NCBI GenBank assembly: GCA_013202525.1
Contig: JABMQS010000053.1
Coordinates: forward strand, 1-38,793
Reading direction: 5' to 3'
Source of the DNA: Candidatus Omnitrophota bacterium
GTDB taxonomy: Bacteria; Omnitrophota; Gorgyraeia; JABMRG01
DNA: 38,793 bases
The notes beneath the pieces are model-generated. The model was not told the DNA's origin and did no database searches. It saw only the letters and a program-made list of their open reading frames with translations. Shown here piece after piece: positions 4,489 through 35,100 of the stretch. Numbering within the stretch: the first letter of the stretch is position 1; every line of letters begins with the position of its first letter. The translations under genes and the position numbers were made by a program.

Positions 4489-4500
4489 GGCTTCACCTCG

Positions 4501-5070: not shown

Positions 5071-5099
5071 CGTAGTAAATACCTTTATGCTGGCCCTGG

Positions 5100-6482: not shown

Positions 6483-6514
6483 ATCCTCACCTTATCATTC
6501 GTCATTGCGAAACC

Positions 6515-6575: not shown

Positions 6576-6576
6576 T

Positions 6577-7356: not shown

Positions 7357-7366
7357 ATTAACACCT

Positions 7367-8335: not shown

Positions 8336-8347
8336 GGCATCATATAC

Positions 8348-8587: not shown

Positions 8588-8611
8588 TTTTTCGCTCCTT
8601 TTATTAGGGTA

Positions 8612-8920
8612 CTACGCTGTCTTTATGTCCTTTACCTTTACCTTTGTTAACTGGTCGCGGTGACCTATCTTGCGATGATAGCTCTTTCTCTTCTTGAACT
8701 TAAAGGCTATCTTCTTCTCGCCCTTGGTGTCACCTATGACATCGCAAACCACCTTTGCCCCTTTAATATGAGGCGTGCCGATGGTCACATCCTTGCCGGA
8801 CATGAGAAGCAGAACCTTGTCAAAAGAGATCTCTTTTTTGTGCTTGGTGCGTGGTATCTCGAAGGTATCCCCTTCTTTCAACTTGAACTGTTTTGATGCA
8901 ACCTCAATTATAGCAATCAC
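8612..8920 (-). CDS. rplU: 50S ribosomal protein L21
   Basis: This 102-residue protein begins MIAIIEVASKQFKLKEGD and contains GTPHIKGAKVVCDVIGDTKGEKK and FKKRKSYHRKIGHRD, matching L21 throughout. The start codon is GTG at 8920; the match to the conserved L21 N-terminus (usually MYAIIETGGKQ) fixes it. A GAGAGGAG site lies about 9 bases upstream. A promoter of good quality precedes the gene, so rplU-rpmA-obg can be expressed independently of the RNase gene upstream. Confidence 0.97.
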   Translation of the reverse strand: MIAIIEVASKQFKLKEGDTFEIPRTKHKKEISFDKVLLLMSGKDVTIGTPHIKGAKVVCDVIGDTKGEKKIAFKFKKRKSYHRKIGHRDQLTKVKVKDIKTA

Positions 8921-8956
8921 TTTGATATACTCCTCTCTTTAAATTTTAGGTTTTAA

Positions 8957-8985
8957 AGTATAACATATATAGTTATTAATAGCAA
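8957..8985 (-). promoter_or_regulatory. Sigma70-type promoter of rplU-rpmA-obg
   Basis: On the minus strand TTGCTA (8980-8985) and TATACT (8957-8962) are separated by exactly 17 bases. TG lies two bases before the -10 box (TGTTATACT), giving a partial extended -10. The surrounding 95-bp gap is very AT-rich. The expected start near 8950 leaves a leader of about 30 bases with the GGAG site. Confidence 0.75.
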
Positions 8986-9015
8986 GAAAAATTTGAAACT
9001 TGCGCAAAAGGTGTA

Positions 9016-10530: not shown

Positions 10531-10534
10531 CTTA

Positions 10535-10849
10535 TTACCTCACCTCTACTTTTTCTATACCGATACCCGACGGAAGCTGGCTGTTGAGGCGGTCCTTAAA
10601 CTCTTCCTTCTCTAAGCGCTCTGTCAAAACAAACTCTCCGATCTGGTCCTTACCCGTCAGGCCAAGCTTTAATGCATCCTTGATCCTGACTACAGGGTGG
10701 GGATTAAAACCCTTGGTAAGATACAGGTCAAAATCCGCCCTCCTGGCTGCCCTGTTAAAGAGCCGCATAAGATCCAGATGCGATATGTAGCGCATCCAGC
10801 CGTCCTTATGAAAGGTAACTGTATAGGTAACTCTGGTTTCTATATCCAT
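10535..10849 (-). CDS. DUF2344 radical-SAM-linked protein, short form
   Basis: This 104-residue protein matches the N-terminal part of the DUF2344/TIGR03936 family: VTFHKDGWMRYISHLDLMRLFNRAARRADFDLYLTKGFNPHPVVRIKDALKLG. The HLDLMR and GFNPHP segments are the conserved core. The family is normally encoded next to, or fused with, a B12-type radical SAM protein of the TIGR03960 type. That partner exists here at 15825-17588, but about 5 kb upstream with a pilus and toxin-antitoxin block in between. The protein is much shorter than usual (roughly 200 residues), so it may be a minimal version. The reaction is not known to me. Confidence 0.82.
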   Translation of the reverse strand: MDIETRVTYTVTFHKDGWMRYISHLDLMRLFNRAARRADFDLYLTKGFNPHPVVRIKDALKLGLTGKDQIGEFVLTERLEKEEFKDRLNSQLPSGIGIEKVEVR

Positions 10850-10858
10850 CTAATATCA

Positions 10859-10914
10859 AGGCACACATTCAGCGTGCCTGCACTTTCTTTACAAGTGGGG
10901 CGCATCGCCGCGCC
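10859..10914. other. Three short hairpins between secretin and DUF2344 genes
   Basis: Three small perfect stems follow each other: AGGCAC/GTGCCT (10859-10864 and 10874-10879), CACTT/AAGTG (10881-10885 and 10893-10897) and GGCGC/GCGCC (10899-10903 and 10910-10914). None is followed by a clear T run on the minus strand. They could stabilise the 3' end of the secretin mRNA or act as a weak terminator. Confidence 0.3.
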
Positions 10915-10923
10915 GCTCTTTTA

Positions 10924-12558: not shown

Positions 12559-12568
12559 ACTATACATA

Positions 12569-12597
12569 AGTGTAGAGTATATTAGGGCAATTGTCAA
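12569..12597 (-). promoter_or_regulatory. Sigma70-type promoter of the secretin gene
   Basis: A perfect TTGACA (12592-12597) is spaced 17 bases from TACACT (12569-12574). The predicted transcription start near 12562 lies only about 4 bases before the ATG at 12558. Together with the lack of a Shine-Dalgarno sequence this points to a nearly leaderless transcript. Confidence 0.6.
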
Positions 12598-12620
12598 TAA
12601 AAATAAGGGAGGCTGTAAAC

Positions 12621-13067
12621 TTATTCCAGGTTGGACCAGGGCTTGGAGACGTCAGGCCTTGTCTGGATAACGCCGTCCTGCTGTACGCGAAAATCCCTTG
12701 AGCCGCTGACATTCTTCGACAGCGGCTGCGCAGTGCATACATAAGAACGGGGCCTTGTGACCATCAATCTGAAACCATAGCCATTCTTTTCGCCTGTGCC
12801 GAGCGTCTTGTCTATATACGCCGGGCCGTTGTCAGAAGATGCGAGCCTTACCAGTGTCGCGCCTGTATATACCGACCGCGGCCTGGAGGCGCGATAGCTC
12901 TCCATCGCGGTCCTGATCTTGCTCAAGGATGCTACCGCGGCAGTCTCGTTGGAATCATGGCAATGTTTAAGCAGGGTAGGCACAGCTATAGCTGCCACAA
13001 GCGCTATAAGAGCCACAACTATCATGATCTCAACGAGCGTAAAACCCCTGCCTTTAAACCCTATCAT
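12621..13067 (-). CDS. Type IV prepilin-like protein
   Basis: This 148-residue protein has a short basic leader (MIGFKGRG), then FTLVEIMIVVALIALVAAIAVPTLL, the class III signal sequence cleaved by prepilin peptidase between Gly8 and Phe9. Glu at position 5 of the mature chain is present, as needed for pilus assembly. The hydrophobic N-terminal helix is followed by a small globular domain with an SKIRTAMESYRA segment like those of pseudopilins. One more Cys pair candidate is visible (HCHDSN and YVCTAQ). It lies 20 bases after the orphan MshEN gene and 62 bases before the secretin start. Major pilin versus minor pseudopilin cannot be told. Confidence 0.92.
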   Translation of the reverse strand: MIGFKGRGFTLVEIMIVVALIALVAAIAVPTLLKHCHDSNETAAVASLSKIRTAMESYRASRPRSVYTGATLVRLASSDNGPAYIDKTLGTGEKNGYGFRLMVTRPRSYVCTAQPLSKNVSGSRDFRVQQDGVIQTRPDVSKPWSNLE

Positions 13068-13087
13068 CTCTTAGTGTCCCTTTCGTC

Positions 13088-13543
13088 CTATTTGGAAGAT
13101 CCGTAACCTTTGTCTATGGCCTTGTTGATATCGCTCGGGGTGCTTACAAATGTCTGGACCTTGCAGTTGGTTATAAGCTCTACATCCTCTATCGCATGTA
13201 TATTCAACGGGTCTGACATAACGATGGTGAGGGAATTGCCCATCCTGTCGACAGCTATCAGGCTGTACTGCCTGGCGACATTTTCAGGGATGAGCTTTGC
13301 CACCTTCGGGTCTATATCATAGGTTGCAAGCGGAAGAAATGGAAAACCGAATTGCGTTGTGATGGCCTGGGCGATCGCTTCCTCTGTGACAAAACCTAAA
13401 AGAACCAGCATGCTGCCCAGATGCCCACCCTTATCCTTCTGTTCCAGGAGCGCCTTCTGAAGCTGCTGCTCGGTTACTATCTTTCGCTCAAGCAGCAGTT
13501 CCCCAAGCTGTTTATATATAAGCCTTTTTGGTGGTGCGACCAT
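13088..13543 (-). CDS. Stand-alone MshEN (GspE/PilB N-terminal) domain, possible c-di-GMP receptor
   Basis: This 151-residue protein consists only of the N-terminal domain of type II secretion and type IV pilus assembly ATPases. Two tandem 24-residue MshEN motifs are visible: residues 12-35 (starting QLGELL, ending ALLEQ) and 41-64 (starting HLGSML, ending ITTQ). The second leads into FGFPFLPLATYDIDPKVAKLIPENVARQY, as in GspE. In MshE these motifs bind cyclic di-GMP. The first motif has Gln for the usual Arg and Lys for the second Gly. The ATPase half is completely absent: no Walker A occurs and the stop follows the domain. The upstream neighbour, 9 bases away, is a GGDEF-like protein, which supports a c-di-GMP link. 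Function as a regulator or adaptor is inference. Confidence 0.88.
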   Translation of the reverse strand: MVAPPKRLIYKQLGELLLERKIVTEQQLQKALLEQKDKGGHLGSMLVLLGFVTEEAIAQAITTQFGFPFLPLATYDIDPKVAKLIPENVARQYSLIAVDRMGNSLTIVMSDPLNIHAIEDVELITNCKVQTFVSTPSDINKAIDKGYGSSK

Positions 13544-13552
13544 AATATTTTC

Positions 13553-14983
13553 CTATACCTTTATAGTGTTTTTGCCCTGTGCCTTTGCCTTACCGAGTAG
13601 TTCCCGTGCCTTCTTGATAAGCTCATCTGCCGAAGCGCCGTCTATGGGATTTTCTGTTAAGCTGCCGCACACAGTCAGGCGCTGATAAGACTCATCCGCT
13701 TCCGGAAGCACGATGAGCTCTGATATCTTTGTCTTGATCTCATCGGCGATCTGTCTGGCCTCTTTTTTATTCCTCTCGGGCAGGACTATGGCAAATTCAT
13801 CGTCGCTGAATCTCGCGGCCTTATCACCGGCTGACAGCTCCGAGGCTACCAGGTCACCTATCTTTTTCAGGGCCGCGTCCCCGGCAACCCTGTTATTCCT
13901 TTCGCAAAAATCCTTGAATCCGTCGATATTAAACAATATAAATGAACAGGGCCTCTGATATATCACGGCCCTGTTTATCTCCTCATCCAGGCGCTGTTTT
14001 ATATACTTGTTGTTGTAGAGGCCGGTAAGATCGTCCTTTACCTCCAGCTCCTGGGTCTTGCGGGTCAGCGAATCATTTTCCAAAGCAACGGCCGCCTGCT
14101 TGCAGAATACGCGCAGGAGTTCGACATCATCATCCTTAAATTCAAAGCCGCCTTTATTGTTGCCCACCAGGATCACACCTTCAAGCCTGGCGCGTAATAG
14201 TATCGGAAAGGCCGCGAAGTTATTTATATCGTAGAGCTCTCTGAACGCCTTTATATCTTTGTCTTCTCTGCCGCTCTGCTTGTCGACCACTACCTCCTGC
14301 AGTTTTGATGCCACTATCTCAAATATGCCGTGATGCAGGCTGACCGGCATAGAAGCTGCCTCTGTATCAGCAAAGTTTATGCTTGTAATCGGAACCAGGT
14401 TTTCCTTATCCTTGTCTGCCCTCATTACGACCGCGGAATCCGCCCCGTCGACAAGAGCGATCTTTTCAAGAAGGGCATCCATGATCGTCTTTAAGTCGGT
14501 ACCGCCGGAGATCAGATTTCCAACCTGCAAAAGTCCTGAAAGCATTATGACCTTTTTGTTTATATCCGCGCTTATCTCCCGGGTCTTGGCGCTGAATGAG
14601 CTCAGGTCGCTCACCTCTCCCTTTGTCTTTTGTATAAGAACATTTAAGGAGTTGGCAAGGTCCCCTATCTCGCCGCCATGGGCTATCTCAACCGAGCACC
14701 TGGTATCGCCATCAACGGCAACACGCGCCTGCTTGGACAGATCTATTATAGCGCCGATGGACAATTTAAGAATAGTATAGCCCTGAATGGCCAGAAGCAG
14801 CGTCATGGACAGGAGAAGCGCCAAAGAGGCTGCTGTGCCGGGATCGCTATAGGGTAATACAAAATTTAGGACGATGTAGGAGGTTATAAGAAGCGGCACA
14901 AGAGACATGAGGCAGAATGCGATCGTAAGCTTTTGCCTTAAACCTGCGTTCTTTAAAGCCAATCCTTTAAAAAAATTCGGCAT
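13553..14983 (-). CDS. Membrane HAMP-GAF protein with degenerate GGDEF domain
   Basis: This 476-residue protein has two transmembrane helices (about 20-42 and 50-75), a HAMP-like segment (about 76-122), a helical linker, a GAF domain (about 150-305) and a C-terminal GGDEF-type domain (about 312-476, starting DDLTGLYN at 317-324). The active-site loop reads FSDDEF (392-397) where GGDEF is needed. The Mg2+-binding Asp of the usual DxDxFK is Asn352 (NIDGFK), and the inhibitory-site RxxD is SAGD (384-387). Catalysis of c-di-GMP synthesis is therefore unlikely; nucleotide sensing or a protein-protein role fits better. The adjacent MshEN protein and prepilin suggest control of pilus assembly. Start: ATG at 14983 with AGAGGAAA upstream. 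Confidence 0.88.
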   Translation of the reverse strand: MPNFFKGLALKNAGLRQKLTIAFCLMSLVPLLITSYIVLNFVLPYSDPGTAASLALLLSMTLLLAIQGYTILKLSIGAIIDLSKQARVAVDGDTRCSVEIAHGGEIGDLANSLNVLIQKTKGEVSDLSSFSAKTREISADINKKVIMLSGLLQVGNLISGGTDLKTIMDALLEKIALVDGADSAVVMRADKDKENLVPITSINFADTEAASMPVSLHHGIFEIVASKLQEVVVDKQSGREDKDIKAFRELYDINNFAAFPILLRARLEGVILVGNNKGGFEFKDDDVELLRVFCKQAAVALENDSLTRKTQELEVKDDLTGLYNNKYIKQRLDEEINRAVIYQRPCSFILFNIDGFKDFCERNNRVAGDAALKKIGDLVASELSAGDKAARFSDDEFAIVLPERNKKEARQIADEIKTKISELIVLPEADESYQRLTVCGSLTENPIDGASADELIKKARELLGKAKAQGKNTIKV

Positions 14984-15036
14984 CTGTCGCTATTTCCTCT
15001 TTAAATCCAGCCTGGTTTGAGCAGCATCAACAAGAG

Positions 15037-15183
15037 TTACTGCGCCGCAGATACCCTCTTGACCTTACCGTTCTTCCAAACAGCAAGTAAGCGGCCTGTC
15101 TTCCTATGACGCTCCACCACCTCTTTTACCGCCTGCCTTAAAGCAAGTAATGCCTTATCCTGTAAAGACCTTCGCCTTTTCAT
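15037..15183 (-). CDS. 48-residue partner of the zeta-like kinase, putative antitoxin
   Basis: An ATG at 15183 overlaps the TGA of the kinase gene in an ATGA arrangement and opens a 48-codon frame. The product begins MKRRRSLQDKALLALRQAVK and ends GKVKRVSAAQ; between them are EVVERHRKTGRLLAVWKN. It is basic, with a predicted helix (8-28) followed by a short beta hairpin (LLAVWKNGKVKRV). From memory, small proteins of this LRQAV...HRKTGRPLAVWKDGKV style are often found beside zeta-like AAA genes, and a role as cognate antitoxin or regulator is plausible but unproven here. The overlap implies translational coupling in a fixed ratio. Confidence 0.75.
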   Translation of the reverse strand: MKRRRSLQDKALLALRQAVKEVVERHRKTGRLLAVWKNGKVKRVSAAQ

Positions 15184-15755
15184 CTCTTTGCCTCGCTGAT
15201 CTTTTCAAACAATTCTTTATCGTTTATAGAAGTCTTGCCTTCTCTATAGCTGGCGATTAACGCAGGGGTAACTCCTGAGTTGTTAAACAAGATCCATGAA
15301 TCCGACAAGGGCTGATATAATTTGAAAAAATTACGTATCGATCTCTTAAACCGCCTTCGCACATCCTGCGCAGGAACATTATGGCCGCCCTCCGCCACCC
15401 TATCTTTAATCCGGGCTATAGCAAGCTCCGTATTCGGAACCCACAAAAAGAAAATATGGACCCTATAGTCTTTTTTTCTTAGTATTTTAAATAGTTTAAC
15501 ACAAAACCTGCCGGCTAATGTTGACTCAAAAGCAAAATCTACCTTAAGCCGGGCAAATTCATGAATCTGCTGTAAAACAAGCTTGCCTGCTTTTATAGCT
15601 GCGCTTTCTGGAGAAAATGGTGAAAGACCTTGAGCGATTAAGTCTGCATTTATAAAGTTTGGGCACTCAGCATAGTCAGGCAAAAACTTCTTTGCAAAGG
15701 TTGTCTTTCCTGACCCATTAGGACCTGCTATAATATAAAGATTTTTCCGTTTCAT
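15180..15755 (-). CDS. Zeta-toxin-like P-loop kinase
   Basis: This 191-residue protein starts MKRKNLYIIAGPNGSGKTT, with the Walker A GPNGSGKT at 11-18. INADLIAQGLSPFSPESAA and FAFESTLAGR follow, all characteristic of the zeta-toxin-like AAA/kinase family (zeta proper phosphorylates UDP-N-acetylglucosamine). A TTG start 7 codons earlier is possible, but the ATG at 15755 has a GGAG site 4 bases upstream and fits the family start. It has its own promoter and a 48-codon partner overlapping its stop. The pair is an insertion between the radical SAM gene and the GGDEF gene. If it acts like zeta, it would target cell-wall precursors, whose users (mre/rod genes) lie upstream; that link is speculation. 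Confidence 0.88.
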   Translation of the reverse strand: MKRKNLYIIAGPNGSGKTTFAKKFLPDYAECPNFINADLIAQGLSPFSPESAAIKAGKLVLQQIHEFARLKVDFAFESTLAGRFCVKLFKILRKKDYRVHIFFLWVPNTELAIARIKDRVAEGGHNVPAQDVRRRFKRSIRNFFKLYQPLSDSWILFNNSGVTPALIASYREGKTSINDKELFEKISEAKR

Positions 15756-15781
15756 CGGTCTCCGAGTGTACAACAATATTA

Positions 15782-15810
15782 AGTTTACACTATATGCCAG
15801 GCGATGTCAA
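15782..15810 (-). promoter_or_regulatory. Promoter of the zeta-like kinase / small-partner pair
   Basis: A perfect TTGACA (15805-15810) is spaced 17 bases from TAAACT (15782-15787) on the minus strand, in the gap after the radical SAM gene. The predicted start near 15775 gives a leader of about 20 bases containing the GGAG site. Confidence 0.65.
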
Positions 15811-15824
15811 TTAAACAAATCTCA

Positions 15825-17588
15825 TCATGTGATTTTTAAGGAAGACTTATGCTCTTCTACAAGGGCATCCTTGCTCATGCCGCAGGATATGCGTTCCCAG
15901 GGCAGGATCTCATCACAATCCCGCATCCTCAGATAGCAATCCTTATCTATCCGGTTCTTCAAAAGGGCATCTTCCCATATCGCTGGGTTAAACGACTCAC
16001 TCCAGGCATCGAACCTGGCGCCGCTCTTCCAGGCATCGCGCAAAACAGGCCCCAGCCTCCTGTCGCCTCTTGAAAATATGCCTTCCAGGACACTGGTCTT
16101 TACATCGTGCATCTTAAGCCTGAGGTATCTTTTTCCGCGGACCTTATCAAGCAAAAATCTCTGCCTTCTCTTAAGCTCATCTTCTCCTGTCATAGGCATC
16201 CACTGGAAAGGCGTATGGGGCTTGGGTATTAAAGAAGATACGCTTATCGTGATCTCTGCCGGCGAACGCGAGCTCTCCTTCTTTAATAACGCCAGTTTGT
16301 CAGCCAGGTCTATGATCGCCTCAAGGTCTGAGTCGTCCTCCTGCGGCAGGCCTATCATAAAATATAGTTTGACCTTTCGCCAGCCCATCTTATACGCCTG
16401 CCTCAATGCATCAAAAAGTTCCTTTAACTGTATATTCTTTTTTATTATACCGAGCATCTTCTCTGTCCCGGCCTCGGGGGCAAAGGTGAGCCCGCTCTTT
16501 TTTATCATACTTATCAGAGACGGCAGCTTTTCTAAATCCTCCTCGACCCTGAGCGACGGCAGTGCAATGCCGACACCGAGGGGCGCAAAGATCTCAGTAA
16601 GGCTGTTTATCAGCTCCTTGATATGAGGGTAGCTTGAGCTCGACAAGGAGACGAGTGATAACTCGTCAAATCCGGTATTCTTATAACTCTCCCTGGCCAG
16701 ATCGATAAGCTCGTCGGTCTTTCTCATCCTGGGCGGGCCGTATATGCTCCTTGCCTGGCAGAAGCGGCAGTTGTGCGCGCAGCCGCGCATTATCTCAAGG
16801 CTTATCCTGTCATGTATGGTGGAGATATACGGAACTATCGGGCTTGTAGGATAATCGTCGGATCTCAAGGACTTTACTGTGCGCTTTGTGACGGTATCCG
16901 GGATATCCGAGGACACAGGCCTTATCGCTTCGATCTTGTCTCCGGCATAGGATATATCATAAAGCGAAGGCACATAGACACCCTCTATCTTTGCCATCTC
17001 CCTGAGTATCTCATTCCTGTCCTTGCCCTGCTCTTTAAGGTGCCTGTAACACTCCACTATTTCAAGGATGGCCTCTTCACCATCGCCAAGGAGAAACAGG
17101 TCTACGAAATCCGCCAATGGCTCGGGATTAAAGGCAGACGGGCCGCCGGCTATGATAAGCGGGAATTCAGTACCGGTCCTCTTTGAAGACTCCAAAGGTA
17201 GGCCGGCAAGGTCTAACATATTGAGGAGGTTTGTATAGGTGAGCTCATACTGAAGTGAAAAACCTATGATATCAAATGATGACAGCGGCGTCCTGCTCTC
17301 CAGGGAAAAGAGCGGTATCTTTCTCTGGCGCATGACCTCTTCCATGTCATGCCACGGCGCAAAAGAGCGCTCACACAAAATACCATCCTGCTTATTCAGA
17401 ATATGGTATAGCACCTTAAGCCCGAGGTGGCTCATGCCGATCTCATAGACATCAGGATAGCAGAGGCAGACCTTTGCCCCGGTCCGGTCCCAGTCCTTGG
17501 TTATGGAATTGTGCTCCATGCCAATATACCTGGCCGGTTTCCTTACACCCAGCAGTATCTCATCATTAAGCTCTACTCTATTTTTCAT
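15825..17588 (-). CDS. B12-binding-type radical SAM protein (TIGR03960-like)
   Basis: This 587-residue protein has an N-terminal cobalamin-binding-like domain (about 30-180, with PDVYEIGMSHLGLKVLYHIL and PLIIAGGPSAFNPEPLADFVD). The radical SAM core carries Cys270, Cys274 and Cys277 (GCAHNCRFC, CxxxCxxC) for the 4Fe-4S cluster. LSLVSLSSSSYPHI and FAPEAGTEKML are further core segments. The C-terminal region ends without a fused DUF2344 domain. The family is typically found in the mre/rod - rng - rplU neighbourhood, which is its place here, 8 bases after rodA. A role in RNA or ribosome modification has been guessed from this neighbourhood; the substrate is unknown to me. Confidence 0.9.
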   Translation of the reverse strand: MKNRVELNDEILLGVRKPARYIGMEHNSITKDWDRTGAKVCLCYPDVYEIGMSHLGLKVLYHILNKQDGILCERSFAPWHDMEEVMRQRKIPLFSLESRTPLSSFDIIGFSLQYELTYTNLLNMLDLAGLPLESSKRTGTEFPLIIAGGPSAFNPEPLADFVDLFLLGDGEEAILEIVECYRHLKEQGKDRNEILREMAKIEGVYVPSLYDISYAGDKIEAIRPVSSDIPDTVTKRTVKSLRSDDYPTSPIVPYISTIHDRISLEIMRGCAHNCRFCQARSIYGPPRMRKTDELIDLARESYKNTGFDELSLVSLSSSSYPHIKELINSLTEIFAPLGVGIALPSLRVEEDLEKLPSLISMIKKSGLTFAPEAGTEKMLGIIKKNIQLKELFDALRQAYKMGWRKVKLYFMIGLPQEDDSDLEAIIDLADKLALLKKESSRSPAEITISVSSLIPKPHTPFQWMPMTGEDELKRRQRFLLDKVRGKRYLRLKMHDVKTSVLEGIFSRGDRRLGPVLRDAWKSGARFDAWSESFNPAIWEDALLKNRIDKDCYLRMRDCDEILPWERISCGMSKDALVEEHKSSLKIT

Positions 17589-17596
17589 AATTACCC

Positions 17597-18688
17597 TTAA
17601 AAGATTTTACGTTTGTGGCGGACGCTGACAGCAAGGGCAAGGAGCACCATTGTACTTATCAGGCTTGAGCCGCCGTAGCTTACAAGGGGAAGCGGCAGGC
17701 CCACAACAGGCATAAAGCCTATGGCCATGGCTATATTTACAAAGACCTGAAACCAGAGCGTGGCAACAACGCCGGCGACCAGAAGCTTACCCCTTAAGTC
17801 GCTGGTCGTATTGGTTATTGAGAGCAGGCGCATCGCAAGAAACAGAAACAGCACCAGCACCAGCACCGCGCCAAAGAATCCCCACTCCTCTCCTATGACT
17901 GAAAATATAAAATCTGAATGCCTCTCCGGCAGAAAGTTAAACTGGTTCTGCGTCCCGGATAGCCAACCCTTGCCAAAGATACCGCCTGAACCGATGGCGA
18001 TCTTCGACTGTATCACCGTATAGCCTGCCCCCAGAGGATCGATATTCGGGTTTAGGAATACGAGCAGCCTCTGCCTCTGGTAGTCCTTTAATACAAGCCA
18101 GAGCATGGGAAAACTCAACAGGCCTGTCAGGACAAGGCCAAACATATACCTTAGCCTCACGCCTGCCACAAAAAGCACCATAAGCAGTATCGGTAGAAAG
18201 ACCAACGCTGTCCCGAGGTCAGGCTGTTTGATTATCAGAAATATCGGCACCATGCAGATGAGCAGGGATGTTATAAATACCTTTATGCTGCCAAGATTAT
18301 TCTTGTTGTCGCCTATGTACCTGGCGAGAACAAGGACAAAACTCACCTTGCAGAATTCAGAAGGCTGCAGCACAAACGAACCGATGCTGAGCCACCTCCT
18401 TGCCCCGAGCCTGGTACTGCCTATAGCGAGAACGATTATCAGAAGAAGTATGTTGAGCGCGAATATCAGATACGCATAATCGAGCCAGCGCTCGTAGCCG
18501 AACCATACGATAAATACGAACAACCCCACGGCGATCGCCATCCAGATGAGCTGCTGCATGGCAAAGTTCTTCTGCATTACGCCTGTCGACTGATGGGATG
18601 CGCTGTAGAGCGAAAAGAGCGCTACCATAAATATGAACGCTATAACCACCAATATCAGGGGATCCTTGTCTTGTGTAATGCCTCTCAT
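17597..18688 (-). CDS. rodA: Peptidoglycan glycosyltransferase RodA (SEDS family)
   Basis: This 363-residue polytopic membrane protein has about ten hydrophobic helices. It polymerises lipid II together with PBP2 during lateral wall growth. Family signatures are ARRWLSIGSFVLQPSEFCKVSFVL, KQPDLGTALVFLPI, FLPERHSDFIFSVIGEEWGF and the C-terminal GLPLPLVSYGGSSLIS. The gene lies 8 bases after its partner mrdA and 8 bases before the radical SAM gene. Confidence 0.97.
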   Translation of the reverse strand: MRGITQDKDPLILVVIAFIFMVALFSLYSASHQSTGVMQKNFAMQQLIWMAIAVGLFVFIVWFGYERWLDYAYLIFALNILLLIIVLAIGSTRLGARRWLSIGSFVLQPSEFCKVSFVLVLARYIGDNKNNLGSIKVFITSLLICMVPIFLIIKQPDLGTALVFLPILLMVLFVAGVRLRYMFGLVLTGLLSFPMLWLVLKDYQRQRLLVFLNPNIDPLGAGYTVIQSKIAIGSGGIFGKGWLSGTQNQFNFLPERHSDFIFSVIGEEWGFFGAVLVLVLFLFLAMRLLSITNTTSDLRGKLLVAGVVATLWFQVFVNIAMAIGFMPVVGLPLPLVSYGGSSLISTMVLLALAVSVRHKRKIF

Positions 18689-18696
18689 ATCTATCC

Positions 18697-20448
18697 CTAT
18701 TCTAAAAAGCCGTTCTCATCCAGATACGTGCCTACGAGCCTTGCGATACGCGCCGACTCTCTTCCTCCCTGGCCCCCGTGCTCGAGGAACACTACAAAAC
18801 TTATCATCGGCGCATTGGACGGCAGATACCCGACAAACCACGCGTGCGTGCTGCCGCGTGTGCCAGGCTGTGCAGTACCGGTCTTTCCGGCGACCTTTCC
18901 TGCAACGCCCAACTCCCTTACCCTCGCGTTCTGGCCGGTTCCTGTGCGGCTGTTTACAACATCGAAAAGCCCCTTCCTAATAAACTTGAATGTATTCTTC
19001 TTGAGGCCTGTATTAAATACCTTGCTGTGCGATACATCCCTGTCCTCTATCTTCTCAAGCAGATATGGGGTGGGCGATTTTCCGGCATTGGCTACTATCG
19101 CGACGACCCGCAGCATCTGTATGGGCGTAACGAGCAGAAACCCCTGTCCTATAGAATAGTTGAACGTGTCACCCTTGTACCAGGGTTCCTTTTTTTTCAA
19201 CCTCTTCCATATGGGGTTTGGCACAAGGCCCTTTGTCTCTTTAGGAAGATCTATGCCTGTTGTACTGCCCAGGCCAAACTTCGATGCATAGCGATATATC
19301 TGATCCGCGCCCAGCACGCGTCCTGTGCTGTAGAAGAATACATTGCAGGAGTGCGCAAGCGCGTCAACGATATTCTGCGGGCCATGGCCTGCCTCCTTCC
19401 AGCACCTGAACTTCCACTTACCGAGGCTGATCGACCCATTGCAGGTGAAGGTGGTGTTTATGTCCAGGGCGCCTGTGGCTATGCCTGCAGCAGCGACTAC
19501 TATCTTAAATGTCGACCCCGGCGGAAAACTTGAGCTTATGGCGCGGTCTATCAAGGGCCGGCCCTTGGACCTGAGGAGCGCAAGGCGCTCTTTGTCGGTG
19601 CCTGTGGTAAAGGCGTTGGGGTCAAAATTCGGAGAACTTGAAAGCGCAAGCACCTGGCCTGTCCTGCTATCCATGACAATGCAGGCGCCTTTCTTCTCCC
19701 TTAAGAGCTCATCCACAAACCGCTGGAGGCCAAGATCGATGGTGAGTACGAGGTCCTTGCCCCTTTTTGGTTCCTTAAACCCGCGTCTCCTTATCTGGCG
19801 CGAGGCAGCATCTACCTCTATCTGTATGCCTCCGTCTTCTCCCTGAAGGTATGCGTCGTACTGTTTTTCAATACCGCTTTTTCCTACCAGGTCTTGTATC
19901 TTGTAACCATAGTCCCTGAGCCTTACAAACTCACCTCTTGCGATCCTGCCGACATAACCTATGACATGCGAACCTACTTCTTTATTCGGGTAGTAACGCC
20001 TCGGGGTGGGCCATATCATAGCGCCCGGCACGGAAGACAGCTTCTCCTCAATATAAAAGGCCTTCTCCTTATCAAGATCTGAGGCAACCTTTGTAGGCGC
20101 AAATGGTACGTAGTAGTTTCTTTTGTAATTATAGTGGAGCTTTTTCTTGGGGATATCTGATATCTTGCTTAGGGCCTCAAGGGTGGCGTCTAAATCCTTT
20201 ACCTCCTGGGCGATGACAGCCAGGTCAAAGGATATCTCATCTACGGCAAGTAGGTTTCTGTTTCTGTCGTATATGCTGCCGCGCGGGGCCTCTATGGGTA
20301 TGATCCTTATGGTATTCCTGAGGCTCAGGCCCTGATAGTATCTGAATTTAACAACCTGCAAAAATACAAGGCCAGCCACTATCGCCAGGAAGCTGGCATA
20401 TATAAAAAACTTAAAAATCCTGAATCTTTGTATTGTTTGGAATTTCAT
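18697..20448 (-). CDS. mrdA: Penicillin-binding protein 2 (MrdA), elongasome transpeptidase
   Basis: This 583-residue class B PBP has one transmembrane helix (about 13-33), a pedestal/dimerisation domain starting EAPRGSIYDRNRNLLAVDE (53-71) and a transpeptidase domain. The catalytic motifs are Ser312-Thr-Phe-Lys315 (GSTFK), Ser367-Cys-Asn369 and Lys522-Thr-Gly524. It crosslinks peptidoglycan made by RodA. All active-site residues are present, so it should be functional. It sits between mreD (8 bases) and rodA (8 bases), the standard order. Confidence 0.97.
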   Translation of the reverse strand: MKFQTIQRFRIFKFFIYASFLAIVAGLVFLQVVKFRYYQGLSLRNTIRIIPIEAPRGSIYDRNRNLLAVDEISFDLAVIAQEVKDLDATLEALSKISDIPKKKLHYNYKRNYYVPFAPTKVASDLDKEKAFYIEEKLSSVPGAMIWPTPRRYYPNKEVGSHVIGYVGRIARGEFVRLRDYGYKIQDLVGKSGIEKQYDAYLQGEDGGIQIEVDAASRQIRRRGFKEPKRGKDLVLTIDLGLQRFVDELLREKKGACIVMDSRTGQVLALSSSPNFDPNAFTTGTDKERLALLRSKGRPLIDRAISSSFPPGSTFKIVVAAAGIATGALDINTTFTCNGSISLGKWKFRCWKEAGHGPQNIVDALAHSCNVFFYSTGRVLGADQIYRYASKFGLGSTTGIDLPKETKGLVPNPIWKRLKKKEPWYKGDTFNYSIGQGFLLVTPIQMLRVVAIVANAGKSPTPYLLEKIEDRDVSHSKVFNTGLKKNTFKFIRKGLFDVVNSRTGTGQNARVRELGVAGKVAGKTGTAQPGTRGSTHAWFVGYLPSNAPMISFVVFLEHGGQGGRESARIARLVGTYLDENGFLE

Positions 20449-20456
20449 AATTAGTT

Positions 20457-20960
20457 TTAAAAGCCCGGTGCCAGGCGTATGCGCAGGGACTTAGAGAGCG
20501 CAAAGAAGACCGGCGGTGAAACCAGGCCTGTGTAGACGGCGCCTTTTAACGCTATGACCATGAGCGGATAATAATGGATAAACGCCCGATCTGATATAGA
20601 GTTAACGAATAAGACCAACAGACAGGTCAAAAAATAGAACAGACCGGTAACAAGGATCTGCGTATGAAACTTCTCTTTAAAAAACTTATTCTGGTGGTGA
20701 TTTAAGAACAGCGCTACAAGAACAAAGGATACGGTATATCCCCCGAGTATGGAACTCGATGTTATATCCTTTATCAGGCCGGCAATAACAGCGGCCTTCA
20801 GAGACTCCTGCCTGGAGCAGGTCAGTGCAAAAAATGCCACGATAATAAACAAGAGGTCCGGCTTTGCGCCGAGGAGGCTTATATAATCAAAGCCTGTGGC
20901 CTGTATCAGGCCTGTGCATATCAAAAGAAGAAAGATTGTCGCGTTGCTTACTCTATGCAT
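20457..20960 (-). CDS. mreD: Rod shape-determining protein MreD
   Basis: This 167-residue protein is almost entirely hydrophobic, with five to six predicted membrane helices. It has the typical MreD features GAKPDLLFIIVAFFAL near the N-terminus and ALTCSRQESLKAAVIAGLIKDITSSSILGGYTVSF in the middle. Its start overlaps the mreC stop by 13 bases. Assignment rests on the fold pattern plus position between mreC and mrdA; sequence conservation in MreD is always low. Confidence 0.92.
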   Translation of the reverse strand: MHRVSNATIFLLLICTGLIQATGFDYISLLGAKPDLLFIIVAFFALTCSRQESLKAAVIAGLIKDITSSSILGGYTVSFVLVALFLNHHQNKFFKEKFHTQILVTGLFYFLTCLLVLFVNSISDRAFIHYYPLMVIALKGAVYTGLVSPPVFFALSKSLRIRLAPGF

Positions 20961-21721
20961 AGGACCTCTTCTGTCGCGGAGATATCTACCGAGGGCTTAA
21001 GCAGTGCTATAAGGCTTAAACCAGTCGGCTCCTTCTCTACCTTGATGACCGCCCCTATCAGAAGGCCCTTTGGATATATCTGGCTAAACCCGGATGTCAT
21101 GACCTCATCACCGGGCTTGACATCCGCATCCAGTGAAAGATATCGCAGCTCACAGACAGCGGTTGATGTTCCGTATACAACGCCCATCTGCCTTGAACGC
21201 GAGACCACAGCGCTCACCCTGGAATTTGCGTCGGTAATAAGCATTACCCTGCTTATGCCGGATGATGCCTCGATGACATGGCCGATCAGACCGGCTTCAG
21301 CTACAACAACGGTCTCTTTCTTTACGCCGGCCGATGTGCCCTGGTCTATCATAATCGTGTCTGAGAGGTTCGATGAGTCCCTGCCGATGATCCCTGCGGC
21401 CTTAAACTTAAGAGGCGAGCGCTCCTTAAACTCAAGCATCTTCCTCAGGCGGCTGTTTTCTGTCTCTATCTCCTTATACCCGACCAGCTGCTGTGTAAGG
21501 ATATCGACGGTCTTGCGTAAAGAGGCGTGCTCCTTGATAAGTTTTTTGGAATGGATAAGATAGTTGAAGTTGTAAAAGACTTGATTCACAAGATGAAGCG
21601 GATACCTGGCGATACTAAGAAAGAGAAACTTTGGTCTGTTTATATATGAGGCGGGGCTAAATAGTATGAGGGCTATATATAAGGCGATGACTAAAAAAGG
21701 TATAGATTTTCGAATTTTCAC
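20948..21721 (-). CDS. mreC: Rod shape-determining protein MreC
   Basis: This 257-residue protein has an N-terminal membrane anchor (about 8-24), a coiled coil (about 58-95, LIKEHASLRKTVDILTQQLV and on) and a periplasmic beta-barrel part with IIGRDSSNLSDTIMIDQG, GLIGHVIEASSGISRVMLITDANSRVSAVV and PGDEVMTSGFSQIYPKGLLIG, all typical of MreC. The start codon is GTG at 21721, 10 bases after mreB; the reading frame begins at the membrane anchor. It links MreB filaments to PBP2 and RodA. Confidence 0.96.
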   Translation of the reverse strand: MKIRKSIPFLVIALYIALILFSPASYINRPKFLFLSIARYPLHLVNQVFYNFNYLIHSKKLIKEHASLRKTVDILTQQLVGYKEIETENSRLRKMLEFKERSPLKFKAAGIIGRDSSNLSDTIMIDQGTSAGVKKETVVVAEAGLIGHVIEASSGISRVMLITDANSRVSAVVSRSRQMGVVYGTSTAVCELRYLSLDADVKPGDEVMTSGFSQIYPKGLLIGAVIKVEKEPTGLSLIALLKPSVDISATEEVLCIE

Positions 21722-21731
21722 TCAATGGTTT

Positions 21732-22888
<1,157 letters not shown>

Positions 22889-26100: not shown

Positions 26101-29100
26101 CCAGTCCTGTGGCTAATATCCGTATGGCATAATTCATGGCCAAAGCGTTCAAGCAGGATCCAACCGGCGCCTCTTGCGTGTGTCTTGTTCACCCCAACAA
26201 CAAATTCTACAAATGCCTGGTCAAAATCAACTACTGCCACATTCATCTCCTGGCCATCTCTTGTAATCGTTGCCTGCCTGGCAGCATTCCTCTCCGCGTT
26301 AGCTCCTGTTGGCATGCTCTTTCTTACACGTAAAGATGCGATACCTGGTTTACCATCAATACGAAACGTACTTTCATCCATAAGCTTCTCCAGCTGGGTG
26401 CCTACCTCAGGATGAGTCCTCTTTACTTGCTCAAACTGTTCCAGGGCCGCATTGACACTCACAGCAAAGTCTCTGGCCTCTTCATCGGCATCATCTGCTA
26501 CCACAAATGTCTTCTTGCCATCTATCTCCTCAATGGTTATTCCTTTATACTCTCTGGCAATGCCATCTCTCATATCTATAAGCATCTCATCCATCTTGGC
26601 CTCTTCAATACCTGAACGCGTTCCTATATCTTGCTTTACAGCATCACCGAAGATCTCGTCAAAGGCCGCATCCTCTATCCTTTTTTCACTCGGGGCCTTG
26701 CCATCCTCTGCTTCCAGCCTTGCCCTCGCCTTGGATCTCTCTTCCTGGATATTGGCATCACCGTATACCTGTGTTGCCATATTCCATGCCAGGCGCTCCC
26801 CTATCTTACTCTCTGACAGCTTGGAGGCCCGGCCTAATTCTATTATGGAATTATTAATGCTCTCCTCTATCCTATCCTGCTGATCAGCATTCTCTTCCTT
26901 AGCCAGCCTCTCGCGCTTATCCTTGATATCATCCACAAGCCTGAATATCTCCTGCTGATCATCCTCAGGCAGGCCTTGCGCCATGGCCCTGTTTACATCC
27001 TTCTTGATCTGCTCCGGCGCATCATCATCAAAATTGATCTCAACCGCGCGCCTCGCGTTCTGTATAGCCTGATCCCTGTCTCCAATGCTTGGAATCCATC
27101 TCAAAGGAGCAGTAATTACTATAGCTATCGGCTTTGATGCTGTTAACAGCATACCTAATAAAGCGTTCCCCCACATGCCGCTCTTTAGCTTAGCAAGACC
27201 GGAGGCCTCAGCCGTATCAGGCGCAAGAGCACCCATACCAAACATCTTCATTATGATCACGCCATAGATATAGGCCACCGCAGTCACCAATAGCAACCCT
27301 TGCCCCGCCTCTTGTGTCCTAAGGGTCGACATAGGCACCCTGAGTATTGATATATCGAGCATAGATGACATCCTAGATAACCATTTGCTATTCTTTGTGA
27401 TCTGCTTCTGCCTCTGCCTGAGTATATTTATAGGAACCTGATTCAATTTCGGCTTTATCTGTTTGGCCATACTCATATCTATCCTTACAATATCATTATT
27501 AATAGCATGGGTAAGTAGAGATGTGTTCGGGAAAGACTCAGGTTTTTTAGACTTCTTATTATAGATCGTTATATCCCTGCGTATTGCCTCTAAGGCAGGC
27601 CTTATATCATCGGTCAGCTGGATCACATTCGCGGCATTGATATCCCCGCCTGCTTCGATCACGATCTTTCTATAAGCAAGGTGTGAATCTACAAGCATAT
27701 CTATCTGCGACATATGCAGATCCGGCCTGGCCAGACTCAACATATACTTAACAATATATCCGCTGTCCTCGTCCACATCCTGCTTGGTCGTCATCTGCTT
27801 CATCATATTCCCTATGTCCTTGCTGACTATCCGCTTACTATGCCAGCCAACGACAGAGTTGTGGTATGCCCCCATGACCTTTTTGCCTGCCTTTGCCAGC
27901 ATTATCGATACATCAGGTAACAGGCCGCCGCCTATCATCATGTAAGCATGTATAAACCCTATCTGGCCTAACAGACCAAAGTAGCGGCCAAAGAACACTG
28001 AGGCGAGTATCGGTGTGTAGTATTGAGTTGGAAGACCCATATACGGATTTACAGAAGTATGTTCCCTAAACTTGTACAGGTTTGCAAAGTATGATGATCT
28101 CTGCATAGATATATACCGCCTGAGTGCCTTGTGTACGCTCGATCTCCTATTAACATGCCCTAATAATGCCTTTGCAAGCTGAACGCCTGAAGCATGATAC
28201 CTCATGGACTCCATGAGATTATCATCAGCCAGGGCGCTCTGATCCATCATGCCTTTTTTGACCAGGCCATTTACAAACAGGACCTTGGCCTCTGTCTTCT
28301 TAAAGTCGTAGCCTGTCTTTGATAGATACCCCTCATCCATCATGCGCATGGTCTTGTGGAATGCATCTTCTTCATCATCTCCTGTACCGCGCATGCCGCT
28401 GAATAAACCCTTGAGTACAAGTGAGATAGCAGCGGCTACCTTTGATTTCTTCTTCTCTTTGGTATTCTGCGCAGCCACTGCAGCCTCTACTGTATACTTG
28501 CCTGTAGATGGATCGTAATAATCACGCTTTTCATTCTCTTCCTTTTCAACATCCAGTGACACGCCTGCGTCATTATAGGCGGTCTCCATGCTCTTCTCAT
28601 CTGTCTTTATGGCTGCTGCATCAGCGCCGGCCATCGGGGGAATCTCAGGCAGGTCCTCGCGCGATACACTCGCGTCTAATCTCCTGACCAGGCTGGACAT
28701 GGTCGGCGCAAATCCGACTCCGGCAGATGATGCCTTTGCTGGCAAGGATTCCTGGATATGGAGATCCATCCTGCCTGCCTCAAATATCTCAAGTTCGGCG
28801 TTTATGGCATCGCGGGTCTTATCAGAAAGTCTGTCAAAGCGGCCTTGCCAAATCTTAAACTTCCCTTCATTATCCCTGAACTGCTGCAGAACCGTCATAA
28901 ACTTGTCCACACGCTCCTGAAGGGCCTTGACAGGATCCTTCGCCTCTCTGGCCTCAGGATCCATATTATCATTTGACTTTATGAAACTCTGGTAAACCAT
29001 GACTATCTCATGGAGAGTATCTCTGCCTTGCTCGCCCTCATTATCCTTAAGCCTGGATAAAAACTCCGCGCCGCGTATGTCTATTAATTCAGCTACTATA

Positions 29101-32100
29101 TTAAAGAATGCGATCTTATCGGTATTTTCTGTTACATCAGTCAGGAATTTTTTCAATGCAGGCCCTGCTACCGCACTGTCTGTGATAGCTTCATCTAATA
29201 TCTCAACAGTAGCATCGGTCCTATAGACGTGGAGCCTATGATATATCCTGTTCTCGTTTCCGTCTTTTACATCTACGCACCTGCCCGCTTCATTAAGATG
29301 GCGGATACCCCTGTCTCTACCGGCCAACTGCTCAAAGAATGCCATGTTTGTGCCGCTGTCTATAATTCCAAAGCACTCGATCTCACTATGCGTACCATTC
29401 AGATCTTTTGAGTCAACACCTTCAGGCTTTATATTCTCCAATAGCTCAGTAAGCTCTATATTGGTGGCCCTTGTTGCAGGAGCATTGAGATAGAAGACAA
29501 GCCCGCCGCTCGGGTCTCCGCTTTGAACTGGTTCTGCTGTCCTTCGGGCTGGATGCGACTTTGAGCCGGAGAGATCTGCTTCCTTAAATTCAGACCTGCT
29601 GAGTACCTCTCCTGCGCTATATTCACTTAGCCCCAATGCCTGCAGCTTCTGCATAAGCTCATCCCTATATTCGGGGTTCTTCTCCAGGAGCGCAAGTTCT
29701 GTCATAAAGTTCTCAACTGCAATATCCCCATTTTGGGCTGACAGTTTTATATCAACAGAAATGCCGGGCTTGACATGAAGCGTCCACCTATTATCACGCT
29801 CCTTGTAAAGCACGACCTTGCCGCTCTCTAACAGTTCGTTGATCGTAACACCAGGATCATCATTATGGAGCATTGAACCATCCAGGAGCGCGGCAACGGG
29901 AAGACCCCTTATCCTTCCAAGAATATGATCCTTTGCCACATCCCAGTCATGTGCCCTTGTCAGGGAGGTTATCCTTGACTCATATATGAATGCGGATATC
30001 TTAGAACCCATATCCATGTTGACTTCGATGTTAAATATAAATTCCGCGAACTTCTCCACAGACTTTAAGGTACCTGAAAAACCGCCAAAGTCAGCGCCAG
30101 ACTCAATAGCACATACCATGGCTGCGGCCATAGAAGTGACTGTGGAGAGATTGGATATCCTTACGCCTGTTATGCCCCTCTTCGGGTCATCCACCAGATA
30201 GGGCGTCTTATTGAGATATCTCTTAAAAATAAGCTCGGTGTGGCCCGCAAAATATGGATCTGAAAGCTGCAGCTGAGGCGCAAGAATACCATGTGGCGCA
30301 GGCTTTATGAGCTGGCTGCCGCCAGGGCCGCCATCCAATGCCACATCGCCGCCATAATACTGCATCAGGGCATTAGTGCGTCCTACCATAGACTGCCTGT
30401 ATGCCACAGTCTCAGGATCCTGTGTACGATAAAACTCCTCAAGGGCCGCATCTTCACCCTTGTCACCCTTGCTGTAATCCTGCCAGTTGAACTTGACTCC
30501 CTTTCTGCCTGATACCCACTTCATAAATGCCACATGGACAGCCTGGTCAAAGTAGACTTCTATATAATCCTTAGGCTTACCATTATCAACCCATTCCCCG
30601 TAGGTCCAGTCCTGGATCTTGTCCTTACGCTTGATCTTAAACTTAAGGTGCCTCCACTGTGCCTCCACATAGTCTTTGCCTGTCATATTTTCTTTAATTT
30701 TAAAGCGATTCTCTGCCTGATCGATAAGTTTATCCGCGTCTGTATTGATAAACCCATCCACCTCACTGAGGCGTCTTATCTCATCAGCATCAAGCGCCCT
30801 TGCGTCGAGGCCTTCCTGCGCCCTGTTCCTGAAGAAGGCTGTATCGACCTCATCATGGAGCACCTTTGCGTTTGAAAAGATCTGATTCCATATATCTTTT
30901 GAGACAGCGGCGTTGTCAGCCTTGGCATTGCGAAGCAGGGAAAGCTGCAGGAACATAAATGTATCTGCATCCATGTATATCAGGTCTACGCCTGTGCCGT
31001 TTGTACCTTCTGTTAATCTCTTAAGTATCGCCTCTGGATCCTTTTGTATATCACCAAGGGTGATCTGTGTGACAATATCCTCATTGAGCGTAACCTTAGG
31101 TTTTGACCCAGATTCTGCCTCTGCTTCAGAATCTGCCAGGCGAGCTTCAAGCTCCTGATCAGCGGCCGCAATAGTCTGCTCGGTCTCTGGCTTTGGATCT
31201 GCCAGGGACTCTTCCCCGTTCTGACATAAGGCTACTATATCCAGTTCCTTTTTGTCGAAATCGATATTCATCGGATTATTCTTGGTGGCTATCTCTTTAA
31301 ATTGGTTTGAGTCATGCGTAATGTATATGGTGTGCCTTCCGGGCATTGCCCCGTTTTTCTTTAATATGGAGTTTATCCTAACTACGGCCTTCATAACTGT
31401 CTTTGTCTTTCCAAAACCCGTAGGTATCTCAAAGAAGGTGTTCTTAACAAAGGCAACAGAGAGTATGGCCTCTATAGGATTGATCTTATCCCTTTCGTGC
31501 AGTTCTAATTCTGTATTCTCCGCACGCATCTCTTCTACGGCTGTATAAAGAGCCTGCTTTATCTGCTCTATGGTATTAAACCTGTTATGGCCTTCTGTGA
31601 TTATATTGCCGTCCTCAAGGTCTGTGATCGTTAGAGTAACGCTGTCGGCATTAAACTTGCCTGTTTTTTGATCAAACATCTCTTTAGTGCTCTTAGGAGA
31701 TTTAATCGCAAAACTCAACCCTGAGCCTGAATCGGTTATAGATGTTGTACGCACGTCCCCGTTAAAGTCGACGAGCCTCTGGATCCCGCCGCCTGAGCTG
31801 ACATTGGCAATGCTCAGGACCGGTATCTTCTTCCCATCCGCTGATGTTGTCTCATCAATAGACAGAACCGCCTCTTTCAGGTCTATTCTAGTCATCACCT
31901 TTGACCCTGCCTTTTCCTCTGCCTCTATGGTGGGGTGGGACTTTACGCCTTCTGCGCTCTCTGCATCCGCTTCAGAGGCATCTTGATCAGGCTTTGTGTA
32001 GTCTGAGGCCTCAAGTACAAAATCTACATAAGGGTTATCGGCAAATGTTGCAATATCATTTTCTAATCTAGCCAATGTCGTCCTGGTCAGATCATATTTC

Positions 32101-35100
32101 TGTGCCTTATCCCCTATGCCATCGATCTCTATATAAGGGGATCCTTTACCATCTGCAACCTGTTCTGTTCCTATCCTTGCTACTATTATCTTAACCTCTA
32201 TCAGACCTAATCTTGTGACCAGCAGGTTACGCGCATCTTCGCTCAGGTCACTAAACTCCACATCCTCCATCAAAGGCCCGACTTCATCCCTTACATCTTC
32301 TAGGCTGGCACCTACGGTTACCTGGTCGGTTTCTGCGCGGTCCTTATTTATCTGAGCTGCCAGAGTTCCTTGAGCTATGTTCAGTGCGTGTTCCAAGGTG
32401 ACTATCTTTGTAACACGTGCTACCTCTAGCAGCTCGAATTCTGATAATCCATTATTCCTTGCGAGATCAGCCAGGCTGTCTCCTGCGCGGACCGGCACTG
32501 GTATAAGCTCAAACCCCTTCTTGGCCAGGAGGTTCTGATTCAATACAGCCGCGATTGATGTCTTTCCTAGCCCTGCCAGGTGCCTTGCTGCCATGCCTAC
32601 GGTTATTGTGCGGCCTTCGTTGGCTTTAAGGAATGTCGTTGCTTCCTCAGCAGTAAAACCTAGTATCTGCAATGCTTCAACTTTCCTATTCACTGTACCT
32701 GATTCATACATAAACACTGTCAGAGACATAGCAGGCGTGACATATGCAGGCGTTAAGATCAGTCCGCATTTTTCCGCAAATGCACCTGCTTCCGGTTTGC
32801 TGCTTAAGGTATCTACAAATGCTGCAAAGCTTTGTCTGTTCTCTGATAATCTTGTCCTAACGCTGGCGGCCACGGATTCTTCAGCCTTGCTTACAAATTC
32901 TGCTACGCTTGTATTGCTATTCATGCTGGGATCTGCTTCCAGCTGGGCTTCTATCGCTTCAACAGAATCTTTAAATTGTTCTGAACCCAACAGGTCTTCT
33001 ACCTTTACATAGTCTGTAAGCTCTGCCATCTCTGTTTTATCCATAATGGTGAACTCTACCTCGTAAGTATCCTGAAGCTGGGGAAGGCTCTGTCCTGTCA
33101 TGCCTGCGAATTCTACATTAGACATCTCATGGCCTGTCTTGATCTCATGCATATTATCAAGAAGATCAAAACTGCTCATACGCTGCTCTGTCTCTGATAC
33201 GGCTGCATGCTCATTCTGGTGTTTTGTTAGTTCATTAAGGCTCATACCACTGATTCCAGCTGCGGTGTATTCGCCTTCCTGGACATCATTCTGGTCCTGG
33301 GCAAACCTTATGCCCATGGCTTCAAATCTATCTGCATTTTCGCTGATCTCTTCCTCGCTAAGAACATCTCCCACCTTAAACCCTCTCTTCTGCACCTGCT
33401 CATCAAGGGTAACGGGCTTTAGCCTCTTTAATGAACTGTTCGCCCTGCTATAGAATCTTATCCTGGAAGATGCCCTGCCTCCTATACCCGGAATTAACTC
33501 AACCGCTACCTCAGCTGCGCCTGGTGAGATACCGAAGAAGCCCTGTAATATGAATGAGGCCGATCCTTCAAGATATGCCTCCCTTGCAACGCCCATGGCC
33601 TCTGTGGCAATTGTAGATTCACCTACCCATTTTAAGGCAACTTTCGACCCTGGTATTTTTCCAGCAACCCCACCCAGAAACTGGCCTGACACCTCCATAG
33701 CAGCCCCAAGTGGAGCCAGGACAGCACCAAAGATAAAGCCCTGTATCGCAGCGTCTATATATGTATTAGCGCCAAAGTTCTCTATGCCGCGTGAAAGCCA
33801 ACCGGCTACAGCAGCGGTTCCGGTCTCGCCACTCTTCTCATGGGGCCTGAGCCACCAGGTGGATACAGGAGTAAGGAAACCCTTTCCTATTGCGGTGAAT
33901 ATTATCATATGTCCACCAACACCAAATGCCTGGCCAAGCAACTGGTTATAAGCAGCATAGGCTGTCCTTGGGTGTAATAGGGCAGCAGCAAATCTTCCTA
34001 CTCCTGTTGCGCCCAAGAAACCAGGGGTATCACCAAATATCTCTATCTTTGTCACAAGCGGGACCTTGCCCAATCCTTTGTGGCCTACTACTATGCCGCT
34101 CCAGAAGAAGTTAACGATAAGTGTTGTACCGCCAACAGTACCAAGCCCCCATTTAATGCCTTCCCAGCTGGTGGCTGTACGAACACCTGAGTAGAATCTA
34201 TTGAAAAATCCGGTCTCATTATCAGGATTTGCAATTGCCTGATAAAGCCCTCTTCCTGTAGCGCCGTAGAAGAAGAGGCTGTATGGTGAAATGGCCTTCG
34301 TTTCAAAAGACAGCGGCTTGAATATACTGCCCAAAATCCCCCTCTTGGGGTTAAGCGCGACCCTCAGGTATTGGGGCGCTTTAGGTAAAGCAGATTCTGC
34401 CACAATGGCCTGGTCAGTATGTATTGTCCTGCTCAAGGCCTTGTAACCTCCGGCAGCAGTCCACATCAACGCCAATGCAGTAGCTGCTATAAACCCCTGC
34501 TTGACGCTCTCTGCAACCAGATCCGCGGATATTGCCCTGCCACGCCCTACAGCCTCATGTATACCATAAAACGTACCAAAGGCCGGTGCTGACCAACCAA
34601 CAATGAGCCATCCTGAAACCTTCTCGCCTGACTGGTATGCCTTGTATATGCTCAATGGCCTCCAATGTTTCAATGAGAACGCATGGCTTCCAAACCATTT
34701 TACATTTGAGGCCTGGAATGCAGAACCGATAGTAGCCGGTGTGCCGATAGCGGCAAGTGGAGTAAAGACCATAGACCACTTCACAGAACTTCTTATGACA
34801 TCCATTGCGCCTTGCGCAGTAGGCGTTTCGCCGCGGGAAAAGCTCATAGCTGTGTAGGCCGACAGGCCTACTGTTGTAGTAGTCTGAACATTGAAGAGAA
34901 AAGCGCGATAAAGCCTTGCGCTGATAATACTGCCATAGCCTAGCGCTGCCCGGGCACGTAAAAATCCCTTTGATGAGGCATAAGTAGTTGAGACCGCTGT
35001 TTTATAACCAGCGCCCAGCCTTGATACCATAGCTGGGGCAAGTCCTACAACCTGTCCTGCTCCAAGAGTCATTGCGAGCGCCTCAATGTCCTTATTTGTC

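Follow-up and report, generated by a model that had tools for sequence, protein, structure and literature searches.

A predicted SecA-type ATPase motor embedded in a giant protein of an Omnitrophota bacterium

A giant open reading frame (ORF) of a Candidatus Omnitrophota bacterium carries what is probably a divergent SecA-type SF2 motor, predicted to be active. SecA is the ATPase engine that pushes proteins through membranes. The best explanation of the sequence, to which we give a probability of roughly 0.45, is that the giant contains a complete, divergent SecA-type SF2 ATPase, favoured as a putative translocase acting in cis. To our knowledge, no account exists of the means by which bacteria produce and secrete polypeptides of 5,000 to 45,000 residues, and the recurrence of built-in motors in giants across the phylum could help explain the movement of such enormous proteins. 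With the conserved embedded motor, the Omnitrophota giants gain a first enzymatic core that can be tested, together with a concrete hypothesis in which the cargo brings its own translocase.

The window, which is the whole stretch of 38,793 nucleotides that was analysed, is an entire contig (C35) of a 1.64-Mb genome. Its translation gave a giant open frame with zero internal stops (Table 1). The frame is incomplete, as its 5' end runs off the contig end, so that the N-terminus is missing and the true length exceeds 5,229 aa. The plus-strand translation across the motif span is full of stops, which leaves the minus strand as the coding frame. Residues are numbered from the first codon of the open frame.

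Table 1. Features of the giant ORF and its motor, with positions in the window.
Feature	Position	Strand	Basis or remark
Giant ORF, at least 5,229 aa, 5' cut by contig end	23103..38792	-	Open frame; homologous giants in L007, L008 and L010
Weakly hydrophobic helices, clustered ~700-1,240 aa before the P-loop	33633..35135	-	Hydrophobic segments precede the motor in 8/8 giants examined; aa 1501-1800 conserved
SecA-like SF2 motor region (P0001), aa 2398-3267	28992..31601	-	Highest conservation along the giant
Motif I / Walker A PTGFGKT, aa 2457-2463	31404..31424	-	P, G, G and K invariant, T nearly so (13-member alignment)
IYMDADTFMFLQL, aa 2605-2617	30942..30980	-	Pairs with SecA DIAYGTNNEFGFDYL (hhalign)
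Motif II / Walker B DEVD, aa 2647-2650	30843..30854	-	D-E-x-D-T invariant (13-member alignment)
~245-aa insertion between motifs II and III	30108..30842	-	Position of the SecA preprotein-crosslinking domain; low-confidence fold
Conserved block LSDPYFAGHTELIFK, aa 2843-2857	30222..30266	-	Conserved in 13-member alignment
Motif III GFSGT, aa 2904-2908	30069..30083	-	Aligned with SecA 'AGMTGTAATE...IY.LDV'
Motif V-like ATRATNI, aa 3106-3112	29457..29477	-	Arg invariant (13-member alignment); pairs with SecA-like 'AGRGTD'
Motif VI variant QLAGRDRG, aa 3155-3162	29307..29330	-	Q, both R and final G invariant (13-member alignment)
Two predicted membrane helices, aa 3833-3851 and 3877-3895	27108..27296	-	Hydropathy
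HELCH (HExxH, zincin-like), aa 4219-4223	26124..26138	-	Flanks similar to L010 aa 2633-2832

The first-pass annotation had picked out TGFGKT, DEVD, GFSGT and QLAGR, and all four were found in that order, within the span it had assigned to them, on the minus strand and inside the giant ORF. Two further elements were missing from it, namely IYMDADTFMFLQL and the motif V-like ATRATNI, whose site reads A[CT]RG[TV]D in many relatives. SF2 motifs I, II, III, V and VI thus follow in SecA order, the last in a variant form (RDRG). Motifs II and III are 257 aa apart, compared to 173 aa in the genome's own SecA and ~25-32 aa in DEAD-box controls and most of another SF2 control set; judged from the sequence, this spacing is SecA's layout. 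Within the insertion, the conserved block LSDPYFAGHTELIFK resembles SecA 'GLHQAIEAKE' by eye alone, as hhalign gave no clean pairing of these blocks.

We aligned 13 members of the motor's family, which we call family A, from Omnitrophota giants; the relatives are 19-52% identical to the window sequence. The alignment has 18 invariant columns, nearly all within motifs: P..G.GK, DE.DT, the Leu of an LQ.SDPY block, G..GT, one motif V Arg and Q...R.RG. Such concentration of invariance indicates that the four motifs seen at first pass are not chance matches. It also bears on whether the motor could have lost catalysis and be retained for a structural role as a scaffold, a reading suggested by the shifted Arg in motif VI (QLAGRDRG, where SecA has QLRGRxGR). 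The shift had been noted in the first-pass annotation and is present, but RDRG is a variant conserved across the clade and not a sign of decay. Moreover, distant relatives all keep the Walker A Lys, the Walker B DE.D, the Arg of motif V and the two Arg of motif VI, as is typical of active enzymes. We therefore regard a dead domain as very unlikely, and the motor as quite likely to be an active ATPase, as predicted from these residues.

Relatives of the motor lie in L007 (45% identity over the motor), L008 (34%) and G002. Of 384 sampled genomes of the phylum, 18 had profile matches to the family, almost exclusively in giant ORFs: strong full-length matches were all in giant frames of 3,300 to ~24,000 aa, one weak partial match was in a frame of 39,033 aa, and a few short frames matched weakly or partially. 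No relative of the motor was found in the viral contigs searched. Along the giant, identity to the orthologues is highest at residues 2401-3000 and 3151-3600, rises again at 1501-1800 and is lower elsewhere. The motor thus forms the conserved heart of the giant.

Curated SecA models do not recognise this family. SecA_DEAD and SecA_PP_bind, named in the first-pass annotation as models to search, and P-loop_SecA gave no match to the window motor even at E ≤ 5. None of the 13 family A members matched curated SecA models at E ≤ 1, Pfam SecA_SW was not found in the family, and searches of the window motor against Pfam, NCBIfam, PHROGs and PADLOC returned nothing above cut-off. A PDB sequence search with the window protein and two profiles likewise gave no significant match. 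An entire clade of SecA-like motors thus seems to escape the curated SecA models. What these models did return is the starting point for a different interpretation, in which the motor is a generic SF2 or nucleic-acid remodelling ATPase (Cas3-, DinG- or ResIII-like) with a large insertion, and its SecA look is convergent. ResIII scored 12-14 bits in the window motor (cut-off 22.5), DEAD or ResIII significantly matched seven to eight of the 13 family A members (best 1e-6), and Cas3 matched single members. Still, the sub-cut-off score and the II-III distance of 257 aa, compared to 30-32 aa in DEAD-box controls, do not place the window motor among the DEAD-box/ResIII proteins.

Profile-profile comparison weighs on the same choice. 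With hhalign, motor domain 1 scored 97.0% against the SecA-like giant motors (E 9e-11, 150 columns), 79% against ordinary SecA (E 2e-5) and at most 39% against four single SF2 families, in short alignments around the P-loop. A pooled SF2 profile also matched domain 1 (90%, E 1.5e-6), ordinary SecA alone tied with it in raw score, and the SecA-like giant profile is somewhat favoured in this comparison by its greater diversity (Neff 5.4 versus 4.1 for pooled SF2). Around motif III the two are separated far more clearly: SecA-like motors score 68% there, SF2 controls no more than 0.2%. Local matches are collinear over motifs I-II, III and V-VI, and hhalign pairs GGFSGTLKSVEKFAEFIFNIEV with AGMTGTAATESEEFSKIYKLDV. 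After motif III, in the last third of the motor, the match is weak (2%), so that in this part the motifs and their order carry the kinship with SecA. With the family HMM, SecA-like giant motors took the five highest scores, above the SF2 controls. By these profiles, SecA appears nearer to the motor than other SF2 families do, by way of the SecA-like giant motors and a merged SecA profile. The impression of a SecA flavour over that of generic helicases, recorded at first pass, is thus upheld by the nearest profiles but not by the curated models. Considering also the surface-type character of the giants, which have signal peptides and membrane segments, we think a generic remodeller improbable, and a SecA-type origin of the motor likely. 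The generic remodeller and the dead domain are the less likely readings.

We also predicted the fold, in two AlphaFold runs that each used three sequences only and reached mean pLDDT values of 45 and 50. Foldseek matches of the first model (pLDDT 45) were meaningless, and it was set aside. The second, of the L007 orthologue (mean pLDDT 50), reaches 70-85 in parts of two RecA-like domains, in keeping with the tandem fold on which the first-pass annotation had staked its reading, albeit in a low-confidence model. Foldseek with this model gave no match at E ≤ 0.001. Each of its low-confidence domains aligns to SF2 structures at an rmsd of 3.2-4.2, and domain 2 to SF2 domain 2 at 3.2-3.7 over ~133 residues. 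The longest structural alignments were to SecA chains (5k9t, 1tf5, 6t4h, 3jv2 and 6itc; 340-368 residues, rmsd 16-18), which tied with other SF2 motors at a Z of 7-8. The model therefore speaks for two RecA-like domains in tandem but, taken alone, does not favour SecA over other SF2 motors.

A normal secA elsewhere in the genome, raised as a question at first pass, was found on contig C12 (436 bits), with secY on C6. The presence of ordinary secA and secY indicates that the motor in the window giant is not the housekeeping enzyme. In genome G010, a second, divergent SecY (C5:97839-98813, 102 bits) was seen besides the normal one.

The same genome encodes a second giant with a SecA-like motor. 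This ORF of 4,844 aa (L009, positions 3955-18486, on contig C81) exceeds the cut-offs of both SecA_DEAD (34.6 bits, cut-off 24.6) and SecA_PP_bind (34.2 bits, cut-off 23.5), and exemplifies what we call family B, the SecA-domain giants of Omnitrophota. By our own count, SecA_DEAD occurs in frames of at least 1,400 aa in ~15 of 59 related genomes, the largest frame having 45,379 aa, and all 14 scanned motors of such frames matched both models. Families A and B thus share a SecA-like motor within a giant ORF, the phylum, two genomes (that of the window and G002) and the hhalign match of 97%. Unlike family A, family B passes the curated models. The hydrophobic helices also differ in place: they are weakly hydrophobic and precede the motor in family A, whereas they follow it in several family B giants. 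In five of these (L165, L167, L168, L169 and L009), 9-12 membrane helices cluster densely, starting within a few hundred residues of the motor, in a domain that is partly homologous among L165, L167 and L009. Identity of this domain with SecY was unsupported in profile comparison (0.4%), and the giants showed no recognisable SecY-like channel, which weighs against the favoured translocase. The L009 giant has ~12 predicted membrane helices after its motor and an AcrB-type efflux gene directly upstream.

Relatives of the window giant with an intact start begin with a Sec-type signal peptide, judged by eye, and several family B signal peptides end in a common 'QDIAWA'-type motif. For the window giant itself, whose N-terminus lies beyond the contig, the membrane and wall association and the self-export suggested at first pass are putative. 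The leader '..VLCFFxQDIAWA' or '..VTFINQDxxWA' is common to L165, L167, L169, L009 and L008:18203-22303, and is followed in all five by a conserved 'INIQDAHxSLGAQESI' domain, which we take to be perhaps TraB/ChaN-like.

From these elements, we infer the ATPase activity, membrane topology, substrate and direction of the motor as follows. ATP would be sandwiched by two RecA-like domains, the first holding motifs I, Ib, II and III and the second IV/V and VI, and the ~245-aa insertion would sit at the site of SecA's preprotein-binding clamp. Given the Sec signal peptides at the start of its relatives, the giant would exit front first via the ordinary Sec channel. The weakly hydrophobic helices that precede the motor may then lodge in a membrane and keep the motor on the ATP side, where it would spend ATP to push or ratchet a polypeptide across, most likely the remainder of its own chain. 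Translocation in cis is a tentative proposal. Its extension to the giants in general, with a SecA-derived motor in cis, unknown to curated models, that powers their own export or delivery into another cell, is more doubtful.

The main rival to translocation in cis arises from the same signal peptides, which could carry the motor outside and out of reach of ATP, so that it would act in a target cell. The giant would then be an exported effector whose SecA-like ATPase works in prey or host as an unfoldase or by interfering with Sec. The signal-peptide-like N-termini of the relatives fit this, as do L165 and L167, in which no strong membrane helix separates the motor from the signal. Omnitrophota giants have been proposed as predation factors (PMC10066038), and effectors of Amoebophilus include SecA-like helicase-related domains (PMC3482391). 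Pfam recognised no toxin domain in the window giant, however, and the motor is its conserved core while effector domains tend to vary, which makes delivery as an effector unlikely in our view.

Putative translocation in cis has a published parallel. Giant actinobacterial secreted toxins contain MFS domains and a SecA-like ATPase, which are 'predicted to facilitate their secretion' (PMC8195603). By description they resemble the window giant in having a SecA-like ATPase in a giant secreted protein with the same proposed role, whereas they belong to another phylum and carry GT4, ART and peptidase domains (PMC8195603). Giant ORFs of Omnitrophota are also already known, most with few annotated domains (PMC10066038). 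The window giant shares their phylum, size class and paucity of recognised domains, but SecA is unmentioned in the main text of that study and this motor is absent from it (PMC10066038). No description of the family A clade was found in the literature searched, the scope of which did not include a giant-gene preprint (10.1101/2023.11.21.568195). Embedded SecA-like ATPases in giant secreted proteins are therefore already published, and family A appears, from its sequences, to be a new variant. Compared to SecA itself, it is alike in motif order, in the large II-III insertion and in the surroundings of motifs Ib, III and V in profile alignments. It differs in falling below every curated SecA cut-off, in its RDRG motif VI, in its longer spacers and in its place within a giant chain, and no wing/scaffold or C-terminal SecA parts were recognised in it.

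Several other observations concern the giant and its surroundings. Its HELCH motif, which is missing in L007, marks a possible zincin-type metallopeptidase. A stretch near residues 2101-2125 (~32400-32495), VRAGDSLADLARNNGLSEFELLEVA, looks like LysM by eye; Pfam reported no LysM. The closest giant, L007, comes from a metagenome-assembled genome labelled 'Clostridia bacterium'; given its collinearity with the giants of Omnitrophota, there may be an error in the label or the binning. Its genome also has SecA_DEAD in a frame of 12,611 aa. Directly downstream of the window giant, on the same strand, lie mreB, mreC, mreD, PBP2 and rodA (17597-22820). This neighbourhood was not seen beside the relatives checked (L007 and L010), where the giant is followed by GT2 and GH94 in L007 and by a GroEL-like sequence, recognised by eye, in L010.
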